Shown here: positions 11,290 to 62,687 of the stretch, in pieces
Numbering within the stretch: the first letter of the stretch is position 1
Layout of the letters: each line of letters starts with the position of its first letter
NCBI GenBank assembly: GCA_015057525.1
Contig: SVEE01000002.1
Location: 130,767-194,766, forward strand
Direction: 5' to 3'
DNA length: 64,000 nucleotides
DNA from: Lachnospiraceae bacterium
GTDB taxonomy: Bacteria > Bacillota > Clostridia > Lachnospirales > Lachnospiraceae
The notes under the pieces: generated by a model
What the model saw: only the letters and a program-made list of their open reading frames with translations
Databases searched by the model: none
What the model was told of the DNA's origin: nothing
Translations under genes and position numbers: made by a program

Positions 11290-14200
11290 ATGTATTTGAA
11301 AAGTATAGAGGTAAATGGATTTAAATCCTTTGCCAACAAAATAACCTTTAAATTTAATAATGGAATAACTGGTATTGTAGGACCTAATGGCTCAGGAAAA
11401 AGTAATGTTGGTGATGCTGTAAGATGGGTTTTAGGTGAGCAAAGTGCTAAGCAGCTTAGAGGAGCAAAAATGGAGGATGTTATTTTCTCTGGAACTGAGC
11501 TTAGAAAGCCTCAGGGCTCAGCCTACGTTGCTATAACATTGGATAATAGTGATCACAAGCTCCCTATAGATTACAATGAAGTTACTGTAGCAAGACGAGT
11601 ATATCGTTCTGGAGAGAGTGAATATCTTATCAATGGTGTTGTTAGCAGACTTAAGGATGTAACTAGTCTTTTCTTTGATACAGGTATAGGTAAAGAAGGA
11701 TATTCGATAATTGGTCAGGGCCAGATTGAGAAAATTTTAAGTGGTAAGCCAGAAGAAAGAAGAGAGCTTTTTGATGAGGCTGCAGGTATTGTTAAATATA
11801 AGAAAAATAAGGCTGCAACTGAAAAATCTCTCGAAAACGAGAGAATGAATCTTTCTCGTGTAACAGATATATTAAATGAGCTGGAAAAACAGGTTGGCCC
11901 ACTCAAAGAACAGTCTGAGACTGCGAGAAAATATCTTATTTTTAAGGATGAATTAAAGAAGCTTGATATTAATGCTTTCCTTCTTGATGTAGATGCAAAC
12001 AAAGAGCAGTTAGATGAATATGAAGAAAAGCTTAATATTGTTGAGGAGGATTCTACAAGACTTAGACAGGAATTCGACCAGGCGAAAGAGGAATATGACA
12101 GAATTGAGTCTGAGATAGAGTCATATAATCAAAAAATTGATGATACAAAGAATGAGATTCACGAGAAGAAGCTCACAAATCAGAGATATGAAGGCGAAAT
12201 AAATGTAATTAGTCAGCAAATAATATCTTATAAGCAGAGTGAAGAAAATCTTAGTGAACAGCTTGATAAGGTAAATACAGATATAGCTAAATGTGATGAA
12301 CAGTTAAAGAAATACTTTGAAGAGAAAAGCGTTATGGATGAAAAGCTTGATAACGCTGATGATGTTCTTGATGAAGCTAACAATGCATATGAAGAATTAA
12401 AAAATCTTATTGCTGATGAAGAAAGAGAGATTGAGGAATCTAAGAGTGAAATCATAGAGTTTCTTAATGAGGGTGGTACTTTAAAAGCAAAGGTTGGAAG
12501 ATATGACACTATGCTTGAGAATATCAACCTTAGAAAAACTCAGCTTAATCAGAGATTTCTTGAAAATAAGAGCGAAGAAGAAAAGTATAAGACTGAGCAC
12601 GACAGTCTCATTAAGGGCTTAGACGAACTTGATGGTCAGTTAAGTGCATTGACTAAAGAGGCAGAAAGCATACAGAACAGTCTTGATGATAATCTTTCTA
12701 AACATAATGAAAACAAAACAAATATTGCTACATATAATAATCAGATAGTAAGTTTAAAGTCCAAGAAGGAAGCTCTTCGCAACCTTACAGAAAGATACGA
12801 TGGATACGGCAATAGTATCAAACGTGTTATGGAACAGAAAACATCTAATCCTAAGATTATTGGTGTTGTGGCTGATATTATTGAAGTTGATAAAAAATAT
12901 GAAACAGCAATTGAAACAGCTTTAGGTGGCAGTATTCAGAATATTGTTACTGAGGATGATGTGACTGCTAAAAAGATGATTGAGTTTTTGAAGCAGAACA
13001 AATATGGACGTGCAACCTTCCTTCCAATTAATTCAATAGTTGAAAGAGGTAGTTCAAACAATGATGTAACAAAGGAACAGGGCGTTGTTGGATATGCTTC
13101 AAAGCTTGTTAAATGCGATGCTAAATTTAATACAATAGTTGGACATCTTCTTGGAAGAATTCTTGTGGTAGACAACATTGATAATGCTATTTCTATTTCT
13201 AAGAAGTACAAGCAGACTCTTCGAATTGTAACTCTTGAAGGAGAACTTATTAATCCAGGAGGAGCAATGACAGGTGGTGCATTTAAAAATTCATCTAATC
13301 TTTTAGGTAGAAAGCGTGAGTTAGATGAGATAGATGTACTTGTTGAGGATTTCAAGAAGAAACTTGAAACAGCTGAACAGCTTGCAGTTACTCTTGCCAA
13401 GGATAGAGATTCCTTGAAAGCCAAGAAGGAAGCTGTCAATGAAGAAATTCAAGGATTAAATATTAAGAAAAATACATATACACTTAATATGGAGCAGGCT
13501 TCTAAGAAATTGGAAGAAATTGAGCGTATATTTGCTGGTATCGGAAGAGAAAACAATGAACTTACAGCTCAGATAAAGGATATCAACGATAACAAAGAGG
13601 AACTCTTCAACAGTAATAAGAAGCAGGAAGAAGCAGTAAAAGAGCTTGAAAAACGTATAGAAGAGTTAGAAAAGAAGATTGTTACAGACAAGGAAGAGCT
13701 TGAAAAATCCACTGAAAAGATCAATAAGTTAAATATTGATTTTAATACAATAAAGCAACAATATGATTTCATACTTCAGAATATTAAGCGTGTTCGTGAG
13801 GACGAGCAGGAAGCTAAGGAAAGCTTAGCTACATTAAAACTTAAGCTTTCTACAGGAAGTAAGGAGATGCTTGATTTATCTGAAAAGATTGAAAGCTATA
13901 AGTCGTTGCTTGAAGAAAACAATAGAATAATTAACATTAAAGAGCAAAAATTAAATGAGCTTACTGCTCAAAAAGCTGAGTTAAATGAAAGTCATAAGGA
14001 CTTCTTTAATAAGCGTGAAGCTCTTTCGGAGCAGATTAATGGTCTTGATAAGTCTGCATTTAAGATTAATGCATCTATTGAAAAATTATCAGAAAAGAGT
14101 GAATCTTTAACAAATTATATGTGGGAGGAGTATGAACTTACATATAATTTGGCAGCTGATTATAAAGATGATTCTTTGAGTGATATAGCTGCACTTAAGA

Positions 14201-14847
14201 GAGAAATCTCAGCAGTCAAAGCTAAAATCAAACAGCTTGGTGATGTTAATGTCAATGCTATTGAAGACTATAAGCAGGTGTCAGAGAGATACGAGTTCTT
14301 AAAGGCACAGCATGATGATATAGTTAAAGCAGAGGCTAATCTTGTTAATATAATTAGCGAACTTGACAGAGCAATGAAGGAACAGTTTGCTGAGAAGTTT
14401 AAAGAGATAAGAATCATGTTCTCGAAGGTATTTAAGGAGCTTTTCGGAGGGGGTAAGGCTGATCTTGAGCTTGTTGATGAAGAAGATCTTCTTGAGACAG
14501 GTATAAAGATTAATGCACAGCCACCTGGAAAGAAACTTCAGAATATGATGCAGCTTTCCGGTGGAGAAAAGAGTTTAACAGCAATTGCACTTTTATTTGC
14601 AATTCAGAGCTTAAAGCCATCTCCATTCTGTCTTTTAGATGAGATAGAGGCGGCTCTTGACGATTCTAACGTTAAGAGATTCGCAAAATACCTTAACAAA
14701 CTTACAAAAGATACTCAGTTTATTGTTATTACCCATAGAAAGGGTACAATGGAGGCTGCAGATATTTTGTATGGTATCACAATGCAGGAAAAGGGTGTAT
14801 CAACTCTTGTTTCAGTTAATATGATTGAAGATAAACTGGATGACTAG
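11290..14847 (+). CDS. smc: Chromosome segregation ATPase SMC
   Basis: Core of the SMC-ScpAB condensin that compacts and separates the chromosome. At 1185 residues it has normal length. Walker A (GPNGSGKSN) is at residues 31-39; two long coiled coils flank a hinge at roughly 500-670 containing GGAMTGGAF; the ABC signature LSGGEKS is at 1089-1095, followed by Walker B (FCLLDEIEAALDD). The ftsY start codon lies 10 bases after its stop, so translation may be coupled. Confidence 0.98.
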   Translation: MYLKSIEVNGFKSFANKITFKFNNGITGIVGPNGSGKSNVGDAVRWVLGEQSAKQLRGAKMEDVIFSGTELRKPQGSAYVAITLDNSDHKLPIDYNEVTVARRVYRSGESEYLINGVVSRLKDVTSLFFDTGIGKEGYSIIGQGQIEKILSGKPEERRELFDEAAGIVKYKKNKAATEKSLENERMNLSRVTDILNELEKQVGPLKEQSETARKYLIFKDELKKLDINAFLLDVDANKEQLDEYEEKLNIVEEDSTRLRQEFDQAKEEYDRIESEIESYNQKIDDTKNEIHEKKLTNQRYEGEINVISQQIISYKQSEENLSEQLDKVNTDIAKCDEQLKKYFEEKSVMDEKLDNADDVLDEANNAYEELKNLIADEEREIEESKSEIIEFLNEGGTLKAKVGRYDTMLENINLRKTQLNQRFLENKSEEEKYKTEHDSLIKGLDELDGQLSALTKEAESIQNSLDDNLSKHNENKTNIATYNNQIVSLKSKKEALRNLTERYDGYGNSIKRVMEQKTSNPKIIGVVADIIEVDKKYETAIETALGGSIQNIVTEDDVTAKKMIEFLKQNKYGRATFLPINSIVERGSSNNDVTKEQGVVGYASKLVKCDAKFNTIVGHLLGRILVVDNIDNAISISKKYKQTLRIVTLEGELINPGGAMTGGAFKNSSNLLGRKRELDEIDVLVEDFKKKLETAEQLAVTLAKDRDSLKAKKEAVNEEIQGLNIKKNTYTLNMEQASKKLEEIERIFAGIGRENNELTAQIKDINDNKEELFNSNKKQEEAVKELEKRIEELEKKIVTDKEELEKSTEKINKLNIDFNTIKQQYDFILQNIKRVREDEQEAKESLATLKLKLSTGSKEMLDLSEKIESYKSLLEENNRIINIKEQKLNELTAQKAELNESHKDFFNKREALSEQINGLDKSAFKINASIEKLSEKSESLTNYMWEEYELTYNLAADYKDDSLSDIAALKREISAVKAKIKQLGDVNVNAIEDYKQVSERYEFLKAQHDDIVKAEANLVNIISELDRAMKEQFAEKFKEIRIMFSKVFKELFGGGKADLELVDEEDLLETGIKINAQPPGKKLQNMMQLSGGEKSLTAIALLFAIQSLKPSPFCLLDEIEAALDDSNVKRFAKYLNKLTKDTQFIVITHRKGTMEAADILYGITMQEKGVSTLVSVNMIEDKLDD

Positions 14848-25111: not shown

Positions 25112-26323
25112 ATGAACAAAAAATATATTATTACTGAATTTAATAATATGCTATGTGGTTTTCTTATGGAGGATGGTAAAGCAAAGGAAATACGTTGCTA
25201 TGACGAGGAATCCATTTTAGGTAATATCTATGTAGGCAGAGTTTCAAATATTGTTAAAAATATCAACTCTGCTTTTATAGACATAAAAAAAGGCTTAAGC
25301 TGTTATTATCCTTTAGAAGAATATATAGGAGACAGGCTTAAAATAGGCGATTTGCTTACAGTTCAGATTAATAAAGAGCCTATTAAGACGAAACAGCCTT
25401 CTGTTACTACAAAGCTTTCCTTGACAGGAGAGTATGTGGTAGTTCATCAGGATGATACAATAGGTGTATCAACTAAGATAAAGGATAATTCAAAAAGGGA
25501 TGAGTTAAAGGTAGTATTTGACAAAGCTATTAGGGATTTTCAGGTACAGCAAAAATGCAAAGATATTACTTATGGAGGAATAATCAGAACTAAAGCAGAG
25601 GATGTTTCTCCCGAAACTATCTATAATGAAACCATAAAAATATTATGTAACCTTGATGAGATTATATATAAATCAAATTATGCAACAGCATATTCGTGTA
25701 TGTATGAGAAGATGCCTTCATATCTACAGGATATAGAGAGTATGACAGGCAATAATGCTAGTAAATCGGAAATAAAAAAAGATGATTATGTTGAATCTTC
25801 AGATAGCTTTGAAATTCTAACAGATTTAGAACATGTTATAGCTAAGTGTCAGGAATATAATGTGCCAGCACCAAGACTTTATGATGATGCAATGATATCA
25901 ATGAGAGCATTATTTAATCTTGATACGATTATTGAAAAAGCCTTAAATAAAAGAGTTTATTTAAAATCAGGGGCCTACCTTATAATAGAACATACTGAGG
26001 CAATGACTGTAATTGATGTTAATAGTGGCAAAGCTATAAAAGGTAATAATAAAGAGGATAAATTGTTTGCTATTAATGTTGAGGCTGCTGATGAAATTGC
26101 AAGACAGCTTAGATTACGAAATATAAGTGGAATGATAATTGTTGATTTTATCAGCATGAACAATTCATATAATGAAGAGCAATTGCTTAAGGCTTTGAGA
26201 AATGCTGTGTATGATGACAGTGTTCTTACGACGGTTGTAGATATTACTAAGCTTGGACTTGTAGAAATGACAAGGAAGAGAATAAGAAAACCTCTTTACG
26301 AGGTGATGAAAAAAGGACAGTAA
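25112..26323 (+). CDS. rng: Ribonuclease G/E family endoribonuclease, zinc link absent
   Basis: Single-strand-specific endoribonuclease for RNA processing and decay. The 403-residue protein has an N-terminal S1 domain (about 35-90, NIYVGRVSNIVKNINSAF) and the catalytic DNase I-like part with metal-binding D302 in IDVNSG and D345 in IIVDFIS, close to the numbering in E. coli RNase E. It ends at EMTRKRIRKPLYEVMKKGQ, just where other members begin the CPxC zinc link that joins subunits. No cysteine codons follow in frame or just downstream, so this looks like a natural shortening. The stop codon sits inside the terminator hairpin. Confidence 0.92.
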   Translation: MNKKYIITEFNNMLCGFLMEDGKAKEIRCYDEESILGNIYVGRVSNIVKNINSAFIDIKKGLSCYYPLEEYIGDRLKIGDLLTVQINKEPIKTKQPSVTTKLSLTGEYVVVHQDDTIGVSTKIKDNSKRDELKVVFDKAIRDFQVQQKCKDITYGGIIRTKAEDVSPETIYNETIKILCNLDEIIYKSNYATAYSCMYEKMPSYLQDIESMTGNNASKSEIKKDDYVESSDSFEILTDLEHVIAKCQEYNVPAPRLYDDAMISMRALFNLDTIIEKALNKRVYLKSGAYLIIEHTEAMTVIDVNSGKAIKGNNKEDKLFAINVEAADEIARQLRLRNISGMIIVDFISMNNSYNEEQLLKALRNAVYDDSVLTTVVDITKLGLVEMTRKRIRKPLYEVMKKGQ

Positions 26324-47875: not shown

Positions 47876-49117
47876 ATGTACGATTTATGCGTTATAGGTG
47901 GTGGTGTGGCAGGTATTTCAGCTGCCATAACTGCTGCCCAAAAGGGTATGAAGGTTGCCATAATTGAAAAGGATAAGAAACTTGGGCGTAAGCTGTATGC
48001 CACAGGAAACGGAAGATGTAATCTTACAAATCAATACATAGATTACGAAAAATGCTATAATTCTTCAGATAAAGATTACGTTGATTTCCTTTATTCTGTT
48101 ATGGGTGATCATGCCTATGAGGCTGTTAATGATTTTTGCAAATCTATTGGTATATTAACTGAGGATATAAAAGGATATGTATATCCCAAGTCATTTCAAG
48201 CATCATCAGTTGTATGGGCCATGTCTGACAAGTTGGCCGAATTAGGCGTTAAAATCCATTTTAAGACGTTTATTAAAGAAATATGTAGAGATAATAGCCT
48301 TTTTATTTTAAAAGCCCAAAACGAGGAATTTACATGTTCTCAGGTGATTATCGCATGTGGCGGAAAAAGCTATGAAAGTCTTGGTGGAACAGATTCAGGA
48401 TATATTTTGGCTAAAAACCTAGGACATAACATTACAACTGTTCGTCCTGCACTTTGTGGATTGACAACAAAAGATGCTATAACAAAGTTATCTGGTGTAA
48501 GAACCAAGGCTAAAATTTCTGTATACAAGGATTATGAATGTGATTACGAATTGCTTGTATCTGAAATTGGTGAATTGCAAATTAGCGATTATGGTTTATC
48601 AGGAATTATGATTTTTAATGTATCATCTCAGGTTGGACGACTTTTGGAAGACAATGATGATTTCACTGTAACAATGGATTTTTTGCCAGGAATAGATATG
48701 AGTAAAATAAAGGAAATGTATGATGTTTGTGGTGATAGAACTGTAGTAGGTTTTCTTAATACATTTATGAATGATAAGCTTGCTTCCTTTTTTACTAGTA
48801 AAATTCTTAAGGATACAAAAATTAAACTAAAGAACATTGATTACTATGATCTTGAAGATTTAATACATGAAATTAAAAACTATGATATTGAAATAAATGG
48901 TATCAAAGGATATGACCAGGCTCAAGTATGCGCCGGAGGTATAAGTATTAATCAGGTTTCTGACCATACACTTATGTCTGTTAAGGAAGAGGGCGTATAT
49001 TTTGCTGGTGAAATTCTTGATATTGATGGAATTTGCGGTGGATATAATATAACCTTTGCAATTTTATCAGGTAAAAAAGCGGGAGAGAGTGCTTATGATA
49101 AGAATAAATCAAATTAA
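47876..49117 (+). CDS. HI0933/YhiN-type flavoprotein (BaiN-like)
   Basis: A 413-residue NAD(P)/FAD-dependent oxidoreductase. The FAD-binding motif is VIGGGVAGISAAITAAQKG near the N-terminus, followed by KKLGRKLYATGNGRCNLTN, a hallmark of the HI0933 family. A second dinucleotide stretch, IIACGGKSYESLGGTDSG, is present. A related enzyme reduces bile-acid intermediates, but family function varies, so the substrate is unknown. TTAGGAGAAC precedes the ATG; the end overlaps the next flavoprotein gene by 23 bases. Confidence 0.9.
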   Translation: MYDLCVIGGGVAGISAAITAAQKGMKVAIIEKDKKLGRKLYATGNGRCNLTNQYIDYEKCYNSSDKDYVDFLYSVMGDHAYEAVNDFCKSIGILTEDIKGYVYPKSFQASSVVWAMSDKLAELGVKIHFKTFIKEICRDNSLFILKAQNEEFTCSQVIIACGGKSYESLGGTDSGYILAKNLGHNITTVRPALCGLTTKDAITKLSGVRTKAKISVYKDYECDYELLVSEIGELQISDYGLSGIMIFNVSSQVGRLLEDNDDFTVTMDFLPGIDMSKIKEMYDVCGDRTVVGFLNTFMNDKLASFFTSKILKDTKIKLKNIDYYDLEDLIHEIKNYDIEINGIKGYDQAQVCAGGISINQVSDHTLMSVKEEGVYFAGEILDIDGICGGYNITFAILSGKKAGESAYDKNKSN

Positions 49118-50741
49118 GGTTTCTGTTTCAGGAGATATGGAAGAGCTTAAATCTAAGATATCTAAACTGATTAAGACATCTGATTTTTCTATATCTAAAA
49201 TCGTGAAAAAATCCATAGATGCAAGGGATAAAAATAATTTGTTTTATATTTATTCTGTGGATATAGAGGTCAAAAATGAAGGCTTAATATTAGATAAAAC
49301 AAAGAAATACAACCATAATAATATTATGTCAACAAAAGAAGAAATATATGTATTTCCATTAGATAAAAAAACTATTTTATCGGATGATTATTTACCTCCT
49401 GTAATTATAGGAGCTGGTCCTGCGGGATATTTTTGTGGACTTTATCTTGCAAGGCAGGGTTATAAACCTATAATCATTGAACGTGGTAAACCTGTTTTTG
49501 AAAGACAAAAGGACGTTGAAGGTTTTTGGAATGGAGAAAAAATAAATAGTAACTCAAATGTATCTTTTGGAGAAGGTGGAGCCGGTACATTTTCTGATGG
49601 TAAGCTTAATACAGGAATCAAAGACAGATATGGTCGAATAAAAGCTGTTGTTTCAGATTTTATAAGTTTTGGTGCTCCTGAGGAAATTGGTTATTTAAAC
49701 AAGCCCCATATAGGAACTGATGAACTTAAGAAGGTTCTCTTTGAAATGCGAAAAGAAATCTTATCCTTAGGTGGAAAGATACATTTTAATACCAGATTTG
49801 TTGATTATTCGATGCAAGGGGATGAGATACAGATTAATTTAGAACCTACCTGTGAGGAATCAACAATAGAATTTAGTAAAATTAATACTAATGCATTGAT
49901 ACTTGCAATAGGGCATAGCTCTAGAGATACATTTTACATGCTTTCAAAGAAATCAATTCCCATGGAGCCTAAATCCTTTGCAATAGGTATCAGAGTTGAA
50001 CATCCCACAGATATGGTTAACGAATCTCAATATGGATGTAGTGATGATGCAATGCTTCTTCCTACAGCGGATTATAAAATGACATTTCGTTCATCAAAAG
50101 GTCGTAGTGTTTATAGCTTTTGCATGTGTCCAGGAGGATTTGTTGTCAATGCTTCCTCGGATGAAGAGCAGTCTGTTGTTAATGGTATGAGTAATCATGG
50201 AAGAGATGAGCGTAATTCAAACAGTGCCATAGTTGTTAATGTAACACCTGAAGACTTTATTAATGAAGGATTTGGTGATTATGGTGTTATGGCAGGAGTA
50301 GAATTTCAGAAAAAATACGAAAGACTCGCATATTTAGAGGGAAAGGGTTGTATCCCTGTTCAGACCTTTGGAGATTACAAAGCTGGTAAAACCACTGAAA
50401 CATTAGGCAAAATCACTCCCAATATTAAAGGAAAATATGAGTTTGCAAACCTTAATAACTGTTTGCCAGTATATGTAAATAATGCTATAATTGAAGGGAT
50501 TTCCTACTATGACAGCAAACTTAAGGGCTTTGCCCGTGAGGATGCGGTTTTATCCGGTGTAGAATCACGTACTTCATCACCTGTTAGAATCTTAAGACAG
50601 GATGATACTCTTATGAGTGAGGAAAAGGGTATCTTTCCTTGTGGAGAAGGTGCAGGATATGCTGGTGGAATTACATCTGCTGCTGTAGATGGAATCAAGG
50701 TTGCAGAGGCAGTTGCAGCATACTTAAATTCATTACAATAA
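49095..50741 (+). CDS. FAD-dependent dehydrogenase (COG2509 type)
   Basis: A 548-residue flavoprotein with an N-terminal region of about 90 residues (IRINQIKVSVSGDMEELKSK, ferredoxin-like in pattern), then the FAD-binding motif VIIGAGPAGYFCGLYLARQG and GEGGAGTFSDGKLNTGI. The C-terminus has GEGAGYAGGITSAAVDG, the second FAD contact. Function unknown; the family is widespread in anaerobes. The ATG at 49095 follows GGGAGAGAG, and overlap with the previous gene suggests coupled translation. Confidence 0.9.
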   Translation: MIRINQIKVSVSGDMEELKSKISKLIKTSDFSISKIVKKSIDARDKNNLFYIYSVDIEVKNEGLILDKTKKYNHNNIMSTKEEIYVFPLDKKTILSDDYLPPVIIGAGPAGYFCGLYLARQGYKPIIIERGKPVFERQKDVEGFWNGEKINSNSNVSFGEGGAGTFSDGKLNTGIKDRYGRIKAVVSDFISFGAPEEIGYLNKPHIGTDELKKVLFEMRKEILSLGGKIHFNTRFVDYSMQGDEIQINLEPTCEESTIEFSKINTNALILAIGHSSRDTFYMLSKKSIPMEPKSFAIGIRVEHPTDMVNESQYGCSDDAMLLPTADYKMTFRSSKGRSVYSFCMCPGGFVVNASSDEEQSVVNGMSNHGRDERNSNSAIVVNVTPEDFINEGFGDYGVMAGVEFQKKYERLAYLEGKGCIPVQTFGDYKAGKTTETLGKITPNIKGKYEFANLNNCLPVYVNNAIIEGISYYDSKLKGFAREDAVLSGVESRTSSPVRILRQDDTLMSEEKGIFPCGEGAGYAGGITSAAVDGIKVAEAVAAYLNSLQ

Positions 50742-57513: not shown

Positions 57514-57545
57514 AAAGTTTAAAAAATATTGAAAAAATAGCAATT

Positions 57546-57573
57546 TGTTAACATAATATTATTACGGTTAAAA
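57546..57573. other. Candidate dif (Xer recombination) site
   Basis: On the minus strand the 28 bases divide as TTTTAACCGTA, ATAATA, TTATGTTAACA: two 11-base arms, partly inverted copies (7 of 11), and a 6-base centre, the layout of Xer sites. ATATTATGTTAAC agrees with the corresponding part of the B. subtilis dif site at 12 of 13 positions, and TTATGTTAA is identical to the XerD arm of E. coli dif (both from memory). The other arm matches known sites poorly. It lies 3 bases past the stop of the recombinase gene. Confidence 0.5.
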
Positions 57574-57576
57574 TAT

Positions 57577-58626
57577 TTATTTTTCTCTAAGTTGAACCTT
57601 ATTTCTGGCCATACGTTTACGTTCGTTGTCTATATCAGCATAATGCTTACGAGTTGTATTAACATCTGAGTGACCTAATACATCAGCTACCAAGTATATG
57701 TCTGAGGTTTCCTGATAAAGAGCTGTACCATATGTGCTTCGAAGCTTATGAGGTGTAATATGTTTAAGAGGCACAGCACTTTGTGAGTATTTTTTTACAA
57801 GGTTTTCAACGGTACGTATGCTTATTCGGCGTTTTTGAGAGGAGAGAAAAAGAGCATTTTCATGGCCTTTTTGGGGCTCGATTTTCTTTCTTTCTTCCAT
57901 ATAAGCTATAAGAGGGTCAATTGATTCATCGCTAAAGTATACAATTGCCTCTTTACCACCTTTTCGAGTAATTTTGATTGATGTATTCTCTATATCTACA
58001 TCATTAATATCAAGACCAATACACTCAGATATACGAATTCCGGTACTTAACATAAGGGTTAAAAGGGCTAAATCCCTTGTTTTGTTCTTTTTATGGTATT
58101 GTAGCTGCTTATCAGTCAAATTAATGCCATATTCAACGGTATCAAGGAAATTGGCTGTCTCTGCAGCATCCATACGAACGATTTGCTTATCGTGCAAACG
58201 TGGACGTTCGATTTTAGCCACTGGATTTTGGCTTACAAGGTCATTCCTGTAGAAATATGAGTAAAATACGCTTAAGGCGGTTATTTTACGCTTAATAGAG
58301 GCCTTACCGTTAGTTATAACTCGTCCATCCTTTCTATATACCTGTAAATAGTCCATATAATCATCAATAAACATGGCATCTATAGAAGAAAGGATTTCCA
58401 GGGTTACATCCTTAGGTGATTCACAAGGAACGTCAGTATATGCCTCACATATATATTCAAAGAAGGTTTTAATGTCTCTGGCATAACCAAGTCTTGTACG
58501 TGATGACTTAGATTGCTGTATTGATCTAAAAAACTTTTTGACGTATGGTGGAAGCTCATCACATATATTACGAATGAGTTCTATGTTTTTGATATCAGTT
58601 TGCTCGTGATATGTATATTCAGGCAA
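57577..58626 (-). CDS. xerS: XerS-like tyrosine recombinase
   Basis: A 349-residue integrase-family recombinase. The N-terminal core-binding domain spans about 25-140 and the catalytic domain about 150-345, with R198 (STGIRISE), K222 (TRKGGK), H293 and R296 (HKLRST), H319 (LGHSD) and nucleophile Y329. Length and the stretches NKTRDLALLTLML and ITRKGGK resemble XerS, the single recombinase that resolves chromosome dimers in streptococci, but a XerC/D role is also possible. The start is TTG at 58626, since AAGGAGG lies 8 bases upstream; a longer version lacks this. A TATAAT lies upstream at 58689-58684 with no clear -35 element. Confidence 0.85.
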   Translation of the reverse strand: MPEYTYHEQTDIKNIELIRNICDELPPYVKKFFRSIQQSKSSRTRLGYARDIKTFFEYICEAYTDVPCESPKDVTLEILSSIDAMFIDDYMDYLQVYRKDGRVITNGKASIKRKITALSVFYSYFYRNDLVSQNPVAKIERPRLHDKQIVRMDAAETANFLDTVEYGINLTDKQLQYHKKNKTRDLALLTLMLSTGIRISECIGLDINDVDIENTSIKITRKGGKEAIVYFSDESIDPLIAYMEERKKIEPQKGHENALFLSSQKRRISIRTVENLVKKYSQSAVPLKHITPHKLRSTYGTALYQETSDIYLVADVLGHSDVNTTRKHYADIDNERKRMARNKVQLREK

Positions 58627-58698
58627 AATAAATACCTCCTTTATATAAAAGTCTAGTAAATACGCGGTTTTCAAGATATTATAATTATAACACTATTT

Positions 58699-58730
58699 GG
58701 TTTAAAAGTACAGGACTTTTTCGTTAAACC
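58699..58730. repeat. Imperfect palindrome upstream of the recombinase gene
   Basis: GGTTTAA and TTAAACC form the outer arms and AAGT/ACTT an inner pair, with a TTTCG bulge. It lies about 75-105 bases before the xerS start, near where a -35 element would be. It could be an operator or a second recombinase-binding site. Confidence 0.4.
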
Positions 58731-58820: not shown

Positions 58821-58857
58821 ATAAAAAGCACCTACAATTCAAATTGCAAGTGCTTTA
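58821..58857 (-). terminator. Rho-independent terminator of the yggS-rluD operon
   Basis: On the minus strand AAAGCAC/GTGCTTT and CAATT/AATTG form a stem with a small internal loop, followed by five T. The upstream arm overlaps the stop codon of the pseudouridine synthase gene. Confidence 0.8.
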
Positions 58858-59790
58858 CATTCTTAATTTATTCAAAGCGTCTTTAAAGTAATCTGGAAGC
58901 TCCGAAGTAAATTCTATATATTCATTTGTTATTGGATGATTAAAGCCAAGGGTTCCTGCATGAAGAAATTGTCCATTAGATTTAAATGGCTTTGATTTAG
59001 GCCCATATACCTCGTCACCAAGTAACGGATGATTAATGCTAGCCATATGGACTCTAATTTGATGTGTTCGCCCAGTTTCGAGTTTACATTGAATTAATGA
59101 AAAATTATTCTTTAAATTCTCTATAACCTGATAATGTGTAACTGCATGACGTCCATTAGGATCTATAGCCATTTTCTTTCGGTCTTGTTTATGTCTGGCT
59201 ATAGGTTTATCTATGGTTCCAGTACCTTCAGCAAACTGATTATAGCAAATTGCTGTATATACACGGTTTATATCATGTACTTTGAATTTGTCAGACATTA
59301 CTCGGTGTGCTGCGTCGTTTTTACAGGCCACAAGGAGCCCTGTGGTATCCATATCTATCCTGTGTACGATTCCTGGCCTTAAAACGCCGTTTATGGACGA
59401 TAATGAGTCTTTACAATGATACATAAGCGCATTTACTAATGTCCCACTTGTATGTCCAGGTGCTGGATGAACAACCATGCCCTTGGGTTTATCTACAATA
59501 ATAATATCATTATCCTCGTAAACAATATTAAGAGGAATATTTTCTGGAACAATTTCTAATTCTTCTGGTTCAGGTATATAAATATTTATTATATCTGATT
59601 TTTTCAGTTTATAATTTGACTTAATATTATTATGGTTAACTAAAATGTTTTTTTCGTCAACTAATTTTTGCAAGTACGCTCGTGAAAACTCGGGTAATTC
59701 TTCAGAAAGAAATTTATCGATTCTAAGTCCTATATATTCAGTTTTGCTTTCGTCTATACAAATTTCTATTTCTTCTGCAAAATCTGCCAT
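58855..59790 (-). CDS. RluD/RluA-type pseudouridine synthase
   Basis: Isomerises uridine in rRNA or other RNA. The 311-residue protein has an N-terminal S4 RNA-binding domain (about 20-75: RIDKFLSEELPEFSRAYLQK) and the catalytic domain with D146 in HRIDMDTTGLL. GRTHQIRVHMASI is also typical. It follows lspA by 2 bases, the order lspA-rluD (ylyB) conserved in Firmicutes. The exact target uridine cannot be read from sequence. Confidence 0.93.
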   Translation of the reverse strand: MADFAEEIEICIDESKTEYIGLRIDKFLSEELPEFSRAYLQKLVDEKNILVNHNNIKSNYKLKKSDIINIYIPEPEELEIVPENIPLNIVYEDNDIIIVDKPKGMVVHPAPGHTSGTLVNALMYHCKDSLSSINGVLRPGIVHRIDMDTTGLLVACKNDAAHRVMSDKFKVHDINRVYTAICYNQFAEGTGTIDKPIARHKQDRKKMAIDPNGRHAVTHYQVIENLKNNFSLIQCKLETGRTHQIRVHMASINHPLLGDEVYGPKSKPFKSNGQFLHAGTLGFNHPITNEYIEFTSELPDYFKDALNKLRM

Positions 59791-61451: not shown

Positions 61452-62687
61452 TTATACAAATTCAAATCCAAATTCGTCTGTCTCTTTATCTGAATCATCT
61501 CCATCTCCAAGAAGACTTGACTCAGGAATGTTGATTTCAACTTCAATCTGTTCCTCTGTAGGAGACGAATCTTCAGTTGTAGATGAGAAATCAACTGTAG
61601 GTATTGTTCCTGAACTCTCTGACATTGTCGATGATGTTTGAGAACCAGGATGCTCAAAGCCTCTTTGTCTAAGCTTTTCTTTTAATTCTTCAGGTACAGT
61701 GGATACCTTAATTCCCTGAGATTTATTATTCTGTGAAGAGCTTTGAGTTGAACTCTGTGCTGTACTTTGAGCTGTGCTCTGTGTACTTGCACTAGAAACA
61801 TCTTCTTTTATTTTATCGTCTACACTGGGAGCTGACGCACTTTCTTCTTTCTTTGGTGCTTGAGTTTCACCAGTGTTTCGTCTAACTCTGTTTTTACCAC
61901 CACTATTAACAGTGAATTTTTGACCACCAGATTTAGTTTTCTTAGTAACTGTTCTACCATCGTACGGATTGTATCTGCCAGGTTCTTCTTTGTTTGGATT
62001 GAATGGATCAACAAAATTTTCATTGGCACTTAACATAGATGTGTAAACAGCACTTGTACTATTAACATCTCCGCCAGAACCCATCATTCCACCACCGCCG
62101 GCATTCATACCACCCAATGAGGACTCATCTCTCATTTGTGGATCACCATCAAATGTTCCAAATGCTCCACCGCCTGCAGGTGCAGCTTGTTGTGGCATGC
62201 TTCCAGCAATAAGAACAAAGGCTCTATCATCAATCTGTGCATCTACATCAAAATCAACTTCACCAAGAAACTCAGCTTGTTTCTTGAGCATAGTTGCAAA
62301 GTTAGACTTATAGGCTGCATATCTTGTTTCAAGCTCAGCCATCTCTAATTTGATTTGTTCAAGTCGCTCTTCTGCTTCTCCAACAATCATTTTAGCTTTA
62401 TTCTTAGCCTCTAACTCAATGTTCTTAGCTTCTTTGTTAGCTCTAGACTTAGTATCTTCTGAGTCCTTCTCCGCTCTCAAAAGAGACTTTTCTAATGCTT
62501 CTTCCTTAGATTTATAATGCTGTAAGCCATCTGTTAATGTTTCTACTTTTTCCTTTAATTCTGCGTTTAAGCGATAAAGCTGTTCATAGCTTTCTGCTAC
62601 AGACTGGAAGAATGTATTAACATCCTTTTTATCGTAACCTAATCCAATGTTAAATTTCTTCTGTTGAATATCAACTGGTGTGAGCAT
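61452..62687 (-). CDS. divIVA: DivIVA-domain protein with long low-complexity tail
   Basis: Pole- or septum-associated coiled-coil protein. Of its 411 residues, the first 60 form the DivIVA lipid-binding domain (MLTPVDIQQKKFNIGLGYD, NTFFQSVAESYEQL) and about 25-145 are coiled coil. The remainder, unlike the roughly 165-residue Bacillus protein, is a long, probably disordered tail: a Gly/Met-rich patch near 175-205, basic segments, a Ser/Thr/Gln repeat near 300-325, and an acidic end. Linkage to sepF and yggS fits a cell-division cluster. Confidence 0.9.
   Translation of the reverse strand: MLTPVDIQQKKFNIGLGYDKKDVNTFFQSVAESYEQLYRLNAELKEKVETLTDGLQHYKSKEEALEKSLLRAEKDSEDTKSRANKEAKNIELEAKNKAKMIVGEAEERLEQIKLEMAELETRYAAYKSNFATMLKKQAEFLGEVDFDVDAQIDDRAFVLIAGSMPQQAAPAGGGAFGTFDGDPQMRDESSLGGMNAGGGGMMGSGGDVNSTSAVYTSMLSANENFVDPFNPNKEEPGRYNPYDGRTVTKKTKSGGQKFTVNSGGKNRVRRNTGETQAPKKEESASAPSVDDKIKEDVSSASTQSTAQSTAQSSTQSSSQNNKSQGIKVSTVPEELKEKLRQRGFEHPGSQTSSTMSESSGTIPTVDFSSTTEDSSPTEEQIEVEINIPESSLLGDGDDSDKETDEFGFEFV

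Follow-up and report, generated by a model that had tools for sequence, protein, structure and literature searches.

The 64,000-nucleotide stretch of DNA analysed here (the window) contains the replication terminus of the chromosome of a gut Lachnospiraceae bacterium. Around it lies an array of dif-like sites that point towards the terminus, that lie partly within genes and that are constrained at the DNA level, in a genome that encodes XerD without XerC. We favour, at slightly better than even odds (about 0.55), a reading in which chromosome dimers are resolved by a hybrid pair of a XerS-like protein and XerD, and in which the polar array holds XerD at the terminus and probably unloads SMC there. 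In the mixed pair, XerD, encoded elsewhere in the genome, would act on the right arm of dif and the XerS-like protein would stand in for the absent XerC on the left arm; this division of the arms is a prediction. FtsK/SpoIIIE would switch the pair on. The further dif-like sites, of which each genome has two to five, mostly within 50 kb and converging on dif, would hold XerD, with or without its XerS-like partner, as an unloading or stopping point for SMC-ScpAB, perhaps a directional one. That these are XerD-type SMC-unloading sites is our best guess by analogy. According to three papers (PMC10945525, PMC12322038, PMC13342612, citing Karaboja et al. 2021), XerD acts at the B. subtilis terminus to unload SMC, and the last of them argues that dif itself serves other bacteria as a primary site of SMC unloading. 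The near-uniform orientation of the sites suggests a role as markers of the chromosome's end, read by machines moving along the DNA.

The window is the interval C13:130767-194766 of a genome assembly (G000) of 2.35 Mb in 21 contigs, and its own contig, C13, has 400,260 bp. As the preliminary description had stated, the genes change from the plus to the minus strand at about 57.5 kb. The GC skew flips its sign at the same point. The terminus had been proposed to lie here, and the whole contig bears this out. The cumulative GC-skew maximum is at C13:188642 (window 57876), 0.3 kb from a 28-base element at C13:188312-188339. In bins of 20 kb, the skew was +0.21 to +0.27 over 180 kb, +0.02 in the bin of the switch and -0.16 to -0.27 afterwards. 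Because the contig-wide maximum falls at this point, the locus is the replication terminus. Its features are as follows.

57540..57900, strand not applicable: replication terminus, with the gene-strand switch and the GC-skew maximum (57876)
57546..57573, minus strand: the 28-base element, very probably the chromosome's dif; PSSM score 32.1 (maximum 33.7), right arm TTATGTTAACA (XerD-type), left arm TTTTAACCGTA(A)
57577..58674, minus strand: XerS-like tyrosine recombinase; 209 bits with the XerS model NF003462 (cutoff 267), likely start at TTG 58626

A re-reading of the sequence placed the element where it had been reported, 3 bases beyond the stop codon of the recombinase (57579-57577); its minus-strand letters from 57573 to 57546 are TTTTAACCGTAATAATATTATGTTAACA. 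The reported likeness to B. subtilis dif was reproduced as well, since ATATTATGTTAAC is identical in 12 of 13 positions to ATATTATGTAAAC (dif as given in PMC3025954). Only the right, XerD arm resembles known dif: it is identical in 9/11 positions to the arm of B. subtilis and in 9/11 to that of E. coli, and the left arm in 4/11 and 3/11, respectively. The proposed 11-6-11 layout is uncertain, as the genus consensus, WACCRTAA-WWATA-TTATGTNAAC, is equally readable with a centre of 5 bp. The conserved arms of the genus sites are separated by 5-6 bp, and the dyad match of the arms is 7/11 under either centre length (5 or 6 bp). With up to three mismatches allowed, the 28-mer occurred once in the window (mean of 100 shuffles, 0.00). 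A single copy per genome had been expected, and this was true of the exact 22-base core; copies with two and three mismatches lie at most 8.3 kb away. The many copies that would have spoken against the preliminary description are thus found in part, as near-copies, and these are sited at the terminus.

We examined 14 contigs of the genus, namely our own and 13 picked for having matches to the site pattern on usable contigs. As the contigs were picked by their matches, the presence of sites on them is not independent evidence; the orientation of the sites is. On every one of them the GC-skew maximum fell inside the xerS-like gene or close to it, at a distance of up to 1.6 kb in 12 contigs and of 2.4 and 5.5 kb in the remaining two. 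Four of the contigs (in G015, G004, G006 and G029) were without a site in the 1.2 kb to either side of the skew maximum. A gene of the DivIVA family is also found near the terminus (window 61452-62687, minus strand).

The open reading frame listed for the recombinase (365 aa from a TTG) very probably starts 16 codons too early. The real start would be TTG 58626, for a protein of 349 aa, because GGAGG precedes this codon and the aligned homologues begin at about the same place. XerS was the top NCBIfam model for the protein, followed by XerC and XerA, and the nearest solved chains by sequence were XerD and XerA. The XerS score was below the cutoff in all six XerS-like proteins tested, the five relatives reaching 180-202 bits. 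Residues invariant between the recombinase and the XerD of the same genome include R214, H309, R312 and H335; the tyrosine of the recombinase comes after TTRKH, one residue later than that of XerD.

XerD is encoded at C13:65697-66554, 122 kb from the locus, and scored 342.9 bits against a curated cutoff of 329.6. It passed the cutoff in 34 of the 37 genomes of the genus, the misses (G002, G007, G017) being 71-79% complete. XerC passed its cutoff in none of the 61 genomes searched, in which the best matches to the XerC model were XerD genes. Separate xerC and xerD genes had been named as evidence that would count against the preliminary description; one half of this pair, xerD, was found, and no gene passed the cutoff for the other, xerC, in the 61 genomes. 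Strong matches to the XerS-like protein (E <= 1e-70) were present in 31/37 genomes of the genus and 23/24 genomes of other families. Because six of the 37 (G002, G007, G010, G016, G031 and G034, the last two 91% and 99% complete) had no strong match, XerS is possibly dispensable in places, and the XerS-like protein may not be required everywhere. A second XerD-like protein, of about 220-236 bits with the XerD model, was detected in G034, G013, G017, G006, G003, G001, G009, G015, G029, G011 and G036, and was not seen in the window's own genome. The genome encodes a single FtsK/SpoIIIE protein, so that FtsK is present. RTP had no match in the genome in a search that detects it in the B. subtilis control. 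The proposed client of the site array is encoded within the window.

11290..14847, plus strand: smc; 1124 bits with TIGR02168, C13:142059-145589

In the preliminary description the locus was a self-contained one, with a single recombinase and its own site. The true XerD in the genome, the XerD-type arm, the tracking of XerD by the sites and an adjacency in only 14 of 30 loci argue against this claim. A pair of the XerS-like protein and XerD fits better than a self-contained single-recombinase module, which we rejected as the main reading because of the presence of XerD, the lack of a XerC over the cutoff and the co-occurrence of the sites with XerD. We divided 246 genomes of the order into those with strong XerD (E <= 1e-84; 88 genomes), those with intermediate matches (21) and those with none at E <= 1e-60 (137). 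Near-exact sites, with at most one mismatch, were found in 21/88, 0/21 and 0/137 of them, respectively. Sites with at most two mismatches were found in 46 strong-XerD genomes, one intermediate genome and six XerD-less genomes, and in one of these six (G060) XerD is split across two contigs; Fisher values for the association are overstated because the 246 genomes are related. No site at this threshold was found in 42 of the 88 strong-XerD genomes. A reversed-pattern control, which covers this two-mismatch class, matched 25 genomes (13, 3 and 9 by XerD class) compared to 53 for the forward pattern; therefore the class is partly noise, with a mild effect of composition. In the scan of 61 genomes, the pattern had matches in only 4/24 genomes of other families.

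The adjacency of gene and site varied. In 14 of the 30 genus loci read (L010-L021, L036, L037), a site is found no more than about 40 bp from the stop codon of the recombinase. In the other 16 no site adjoins the recombinase, and two of these (L038, L039) carry a degenerate inverted copy; for a 31st gene (in G018) the coordinates give a two-mismatch site 28 bp off. None of 18 stretches surrounding sites in other families contained a xerS match; in G039 two sites lie directly upstream of xerS, and in G056 one lies about 9 kb away. Within the genus, the link of the gene to the terminus is therefore more constant than that of the site to the gene, with the skew maximum at or near the gene in 14/14 contigs compared to an adjacency of 14/30.

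It is possible, and in our opinion unlikely, that the XerS-like protein recombines the neighbouring 28-mer on its own, in the manner of XerS/difSL, and that XerD serves some other purpose. The constant place of the gene at or near the skew maximum and its site next door in the window would agree with this, since the linkage of recombinase and site is a possible hallmark of single-recombinase systems (PMC5357621). Furthermore, XerD-less relatives retain the XerS-like gene, in two of 13 cases (G043, G050) with the skew maximum 19-32 bp from its 3' end. However, a module of this kind would not be expected to come with a true XerD, a XerD-type right arm and near-exact sites confined to strong-XerD genomes, nor with an adjacency of 14/30, a score under the XerS cutoff and a centre other than the 11 bp of difSL.

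The assumption of one site per chromosome did not survive: four further dif-like sites, one of them doubtful, are found on the contig. We scored sites with a PSSM built from 32 relatives' sites, our own excluded. Five sites on the contig had scores of 32.7, 32.1, 28.1, 22.8 and 20.0, and the next score was 12.3; the number expected by chance at scores of at least 18 was 0.0 (mean of 10 order-3 Markov simulations). One of the five is dif itself, scored at window 57547 on the minus strand; the sites besides dif are listed below.

25630..25652, plus strand: dif-like site in an RNase E/G-family gene (25112-26323, plus strand); PSSM score 28.1, convergent, in a different codon phase
49311..49333, plus strand: dif-like site in a FAD-dependent oxidoreductase gene (49056-50741, plus strand); PSSM score 32.7, convergent, encoding NHNNIMST
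59615..59637, minus strand: weaker, doubtful dif-like site in rluA (58855-59790, minus strand); PSSM score 20.0
C13:227437-227459, outside the window, minus strand: fifth dif-like site, between two minus-strand genes, 39 kb past dif

The rluA site is doubtful because it is the weakest, falls partly on conserved codons of the S4 domain and is missing from 12 other rluA homologues. In the whole genome, all four matches with at most two mismatches fall inside about 34 kb. The element had been expected to be conserved in relatives, and it is. The search pattern, which was drawn up after inspection of our own and the relatives' sites, had 102 matches in the 37 genomes of the genus, 35 of which carried at least one, compared to a single match of the reversed pattern (three in all 61 genomes). 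The 14 genus contigs had 2-6 sites each at PSSM scores of at least 18, and the extra sites were mostly less than 50 kb from the skew maximum, with one at 70 kb.

The extra sites differ from the switch-proximal ones mainly in the left arm. Among sites with PSSM scores of at least 20, the fourth base of the 23-mer (the second C of WACC) is C in 9/10 switch-proximal sites and 15/42 others, and the exact left arm WACCRTAA is present in 9/10 and 14/42. The exact right arm is present in 9/10 and 28/42, respectively. With 28/42 right arms compared to 14/42 left arms, the XerD arm is thus better preserved in the extra sites. Their centres often equal that of dif, and therefore a differing centre does not explain an absence of recombination between them. 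In the loci L215-L220 (f22 G198, G114, G205, G212 and G219; f7 G064) there were two or three dif-like sites in the same direction, two of them about 1.1 kb apart. We considered whether xerS was a cassette between such paired sites in f22 and f7, and rejected this, as the stretches were without a xerS match.

The array is polar. At PSSM scores of at least 15, the 14 contigs carry 57 sites, ten of them no more than 1.2 kb from the skew maximum, and 46 of the 47 farther away converge on it; a binomial value for this count is no true probability because homologous sites enter it several times. The convergence was 41/42 and 34/35 at thresholds of 20 and 25. With a seed made of TTATGTNAAC only, two-armed copies within 60 kb were convergent in 26 cases, at the switch in nine and divergent in none, and copies without the left arm were convergent in 11 and divergent in five. 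Sites with a right arm only were not clearly biased towards convergence under the strict pattern (6/5 and 11/5), and showed some bias under looser ones (25/11 and 9/2). The sole exception in the genus, G033:C2:84433, has a right arm outside the TTATGTNAAC seed and was thus invisible to the seed test. It and G033:C2:81429, both of them good sites, flank xerS in inverted order, perhaps as the result of a small inversion or of a moved dif. In 20 regions of other families, judged by local skew, 24/31 sites away from the switch converged and seven did not, with five more at the switch. Within 60 kb of the terminus, 96.5% of the coding sequence (ORFs of at least 100 aa) is on the leading strand, and the polarity with respect to replication is therefore inseparable from co-orientation with transcription.

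Convergent polar sites around a terminus are also the layout of a fork trap, and sites bound by Xer proteins might admit replication forks and block their exit, in the way of Ter sites bound by Tus or RTP. The absence of RTP from the genome means that such a role may be vacant. However, the sites are dif-like, not Ter-like, and Xer proteins are not known to arrest forks. We consider a fork trap improbable. Nor do we give better odds to a second possibility, that the Xer-bound sites halt or steer FtsK/SpoIIIE close to dif. FtsK halts at XerCD-dif in E. coli, the genome encodes the translocase, and the polarity of the sites agrees with translocation towards dif; on the other hand, 2-6 sites per contig are too few for a role like that of KOPS.

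The extra sites are maintained by selection at the level of the DNA, including those that lie within genes. Of the 57 sites, 27 overlap ORFs of at least 100 aa and 30 are outside them. The FAD-dependent oxidoreductase gene carries a site in 14/14 contigs, as NNNNIMST or near variants, and this block sits in an otherwise variable loop. Wherever the residue is conserved, its codons AAC AAT AAT AAT ATT agree in 92-100% of cases; of 322 other scored columns of the gene, by comparison, 6% are fully fixed, and the most frequent codon has a mean share of 0.64. AAC encodes the first Asn in every case, and later conserved Asn are AAT, with one exception. In the same block the codons for Ser and Thr are variable (55% and 43%), and 5/17 Asn columns elsewhere in the gene are fully fixed; the codon test alone is therefore moderate. 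The RNase E/G gene has the motif in a different codon phase (3 contigs). In a gene that we take to be lspA from its place beside rluA and its motifs, the phase is 0 (6 contigs). In the lspA homologues without the site (7/13) the peptide block is missing and different residues are found there, and the RNase homologues without it (2/5) have other residues at the position. From the fixed codons, the two codon phases and the absence from homologues, we conclude that selection acts on the DNA.

This constraint also bears on the remaining explanations. The sites could be old copies of dif or att scars of mobile elements that use Xer (IMEX, dif modules), because pairs of dif-like sites bound mobile modules elsewhere, as reported for Acinetobacter, and in f22 genomes there are sites spaced by about 1.1 kb. 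This is very improbable, since many sites are at fixed spots in conserved genes with constrained codons, and the f22 pairs have no xerS in between. Least credible of all is similarity by chance or at the protein level in AT-rich coding DNA: the FAD-gene peptide NNNNIMST is nearly invariant and the rluA site overlaps conserved S4 residues, yet the simulation mean of 0.0, the two codon phases, the position-specific Asn codons, the 30/57 sites outside ORFs and the terminus-only distribution in our own genome leave it hardly any room.

Like XerCD/dif of E. coli and B. subtilis (CodV/RipX), the locus has a XerD over the cutoff and a 28-bp site with a XerD arm (9/11) at the GC-skew shift; unlike that system, it has no XerC over the cutoff, a left arm with matches of only 4/11 and 3/11, and several near-copies of the site. 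With XerS/difSL of Streptococcus and Lactococcus it shares XerS as the best model and, in the window, a gene beside the site at the terminus. However, its score is below the XerS cutoff, XerD is also encoded, and the 31-bp site with an 11-bp centre that PMC5357621 gives for difSL is not the layout here. The XDS of B. subtilis are likewise XerD-type sites at the terminus besides dif, in a genome with XerD, SMC and dif. They may differ from the sites here, which mostly have both arms, converge almost without exception in the genus and in some cases recur within genes under DNA-level constraint; the partner here is XerS-like instead of XerC. MatP/matS shares dispersed terminus sites, but those found here are dif-like. 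The Tus-Ter and RTP-Ter systems share polar convergent sites that flank the terminus (46/47 here, confounded with gene direction); in contrast, our sites are dif-like and RTP is absent.

In the literature searched, no title or opening of an abstract describes a polar array of dif sites. A XerS-like/XerD pair and a gene-embedded array were likewise not found in these titles and abstract openings, and the literature search found no paper linking XerS with Lachnospiraceae. Earlier predictors of dif relied on the criterion of a single site per chromosome (PMC3025954); here dif is instead the central member of a family of sites that is conserved and polar. Should the extra sites unload SMC, a signature of unloading could be read from genomes, and the polarity would make directional unloading testable. 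A XerS-like/XerD pair without XerC would be a further type of dimer-resolution pair, between XerCD and XerS alone. We suggest, tentatively and with less confidence than the main reading, that XerD-bearing Lachnospirales in general have a polar array of two-armed Xer sites, partly in coding sequence, together with the hybrid pair; the array would unload SMC only in the direction from origin to terminus (or stop FtsK or forks) and would provide spare dif sites when the terminus shifts.

The XerD-less relatives are a natural comparison for the pairing of the XerS-like protein with XerD. No shared motif was found near xerS in 13 XerD-less genomes. A search for convergent repeats in G057 and G043 found none, by a method whose top pairs also missed the known sites of our own contig. 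In two of the 13 XerD-less regions (G043:C4 and G050:C19; loci L135, L140 and L247), the skew maximum comes to within 19-32 bp of the xerS-like 3' end, and a XerS-only site may be present at these spots.
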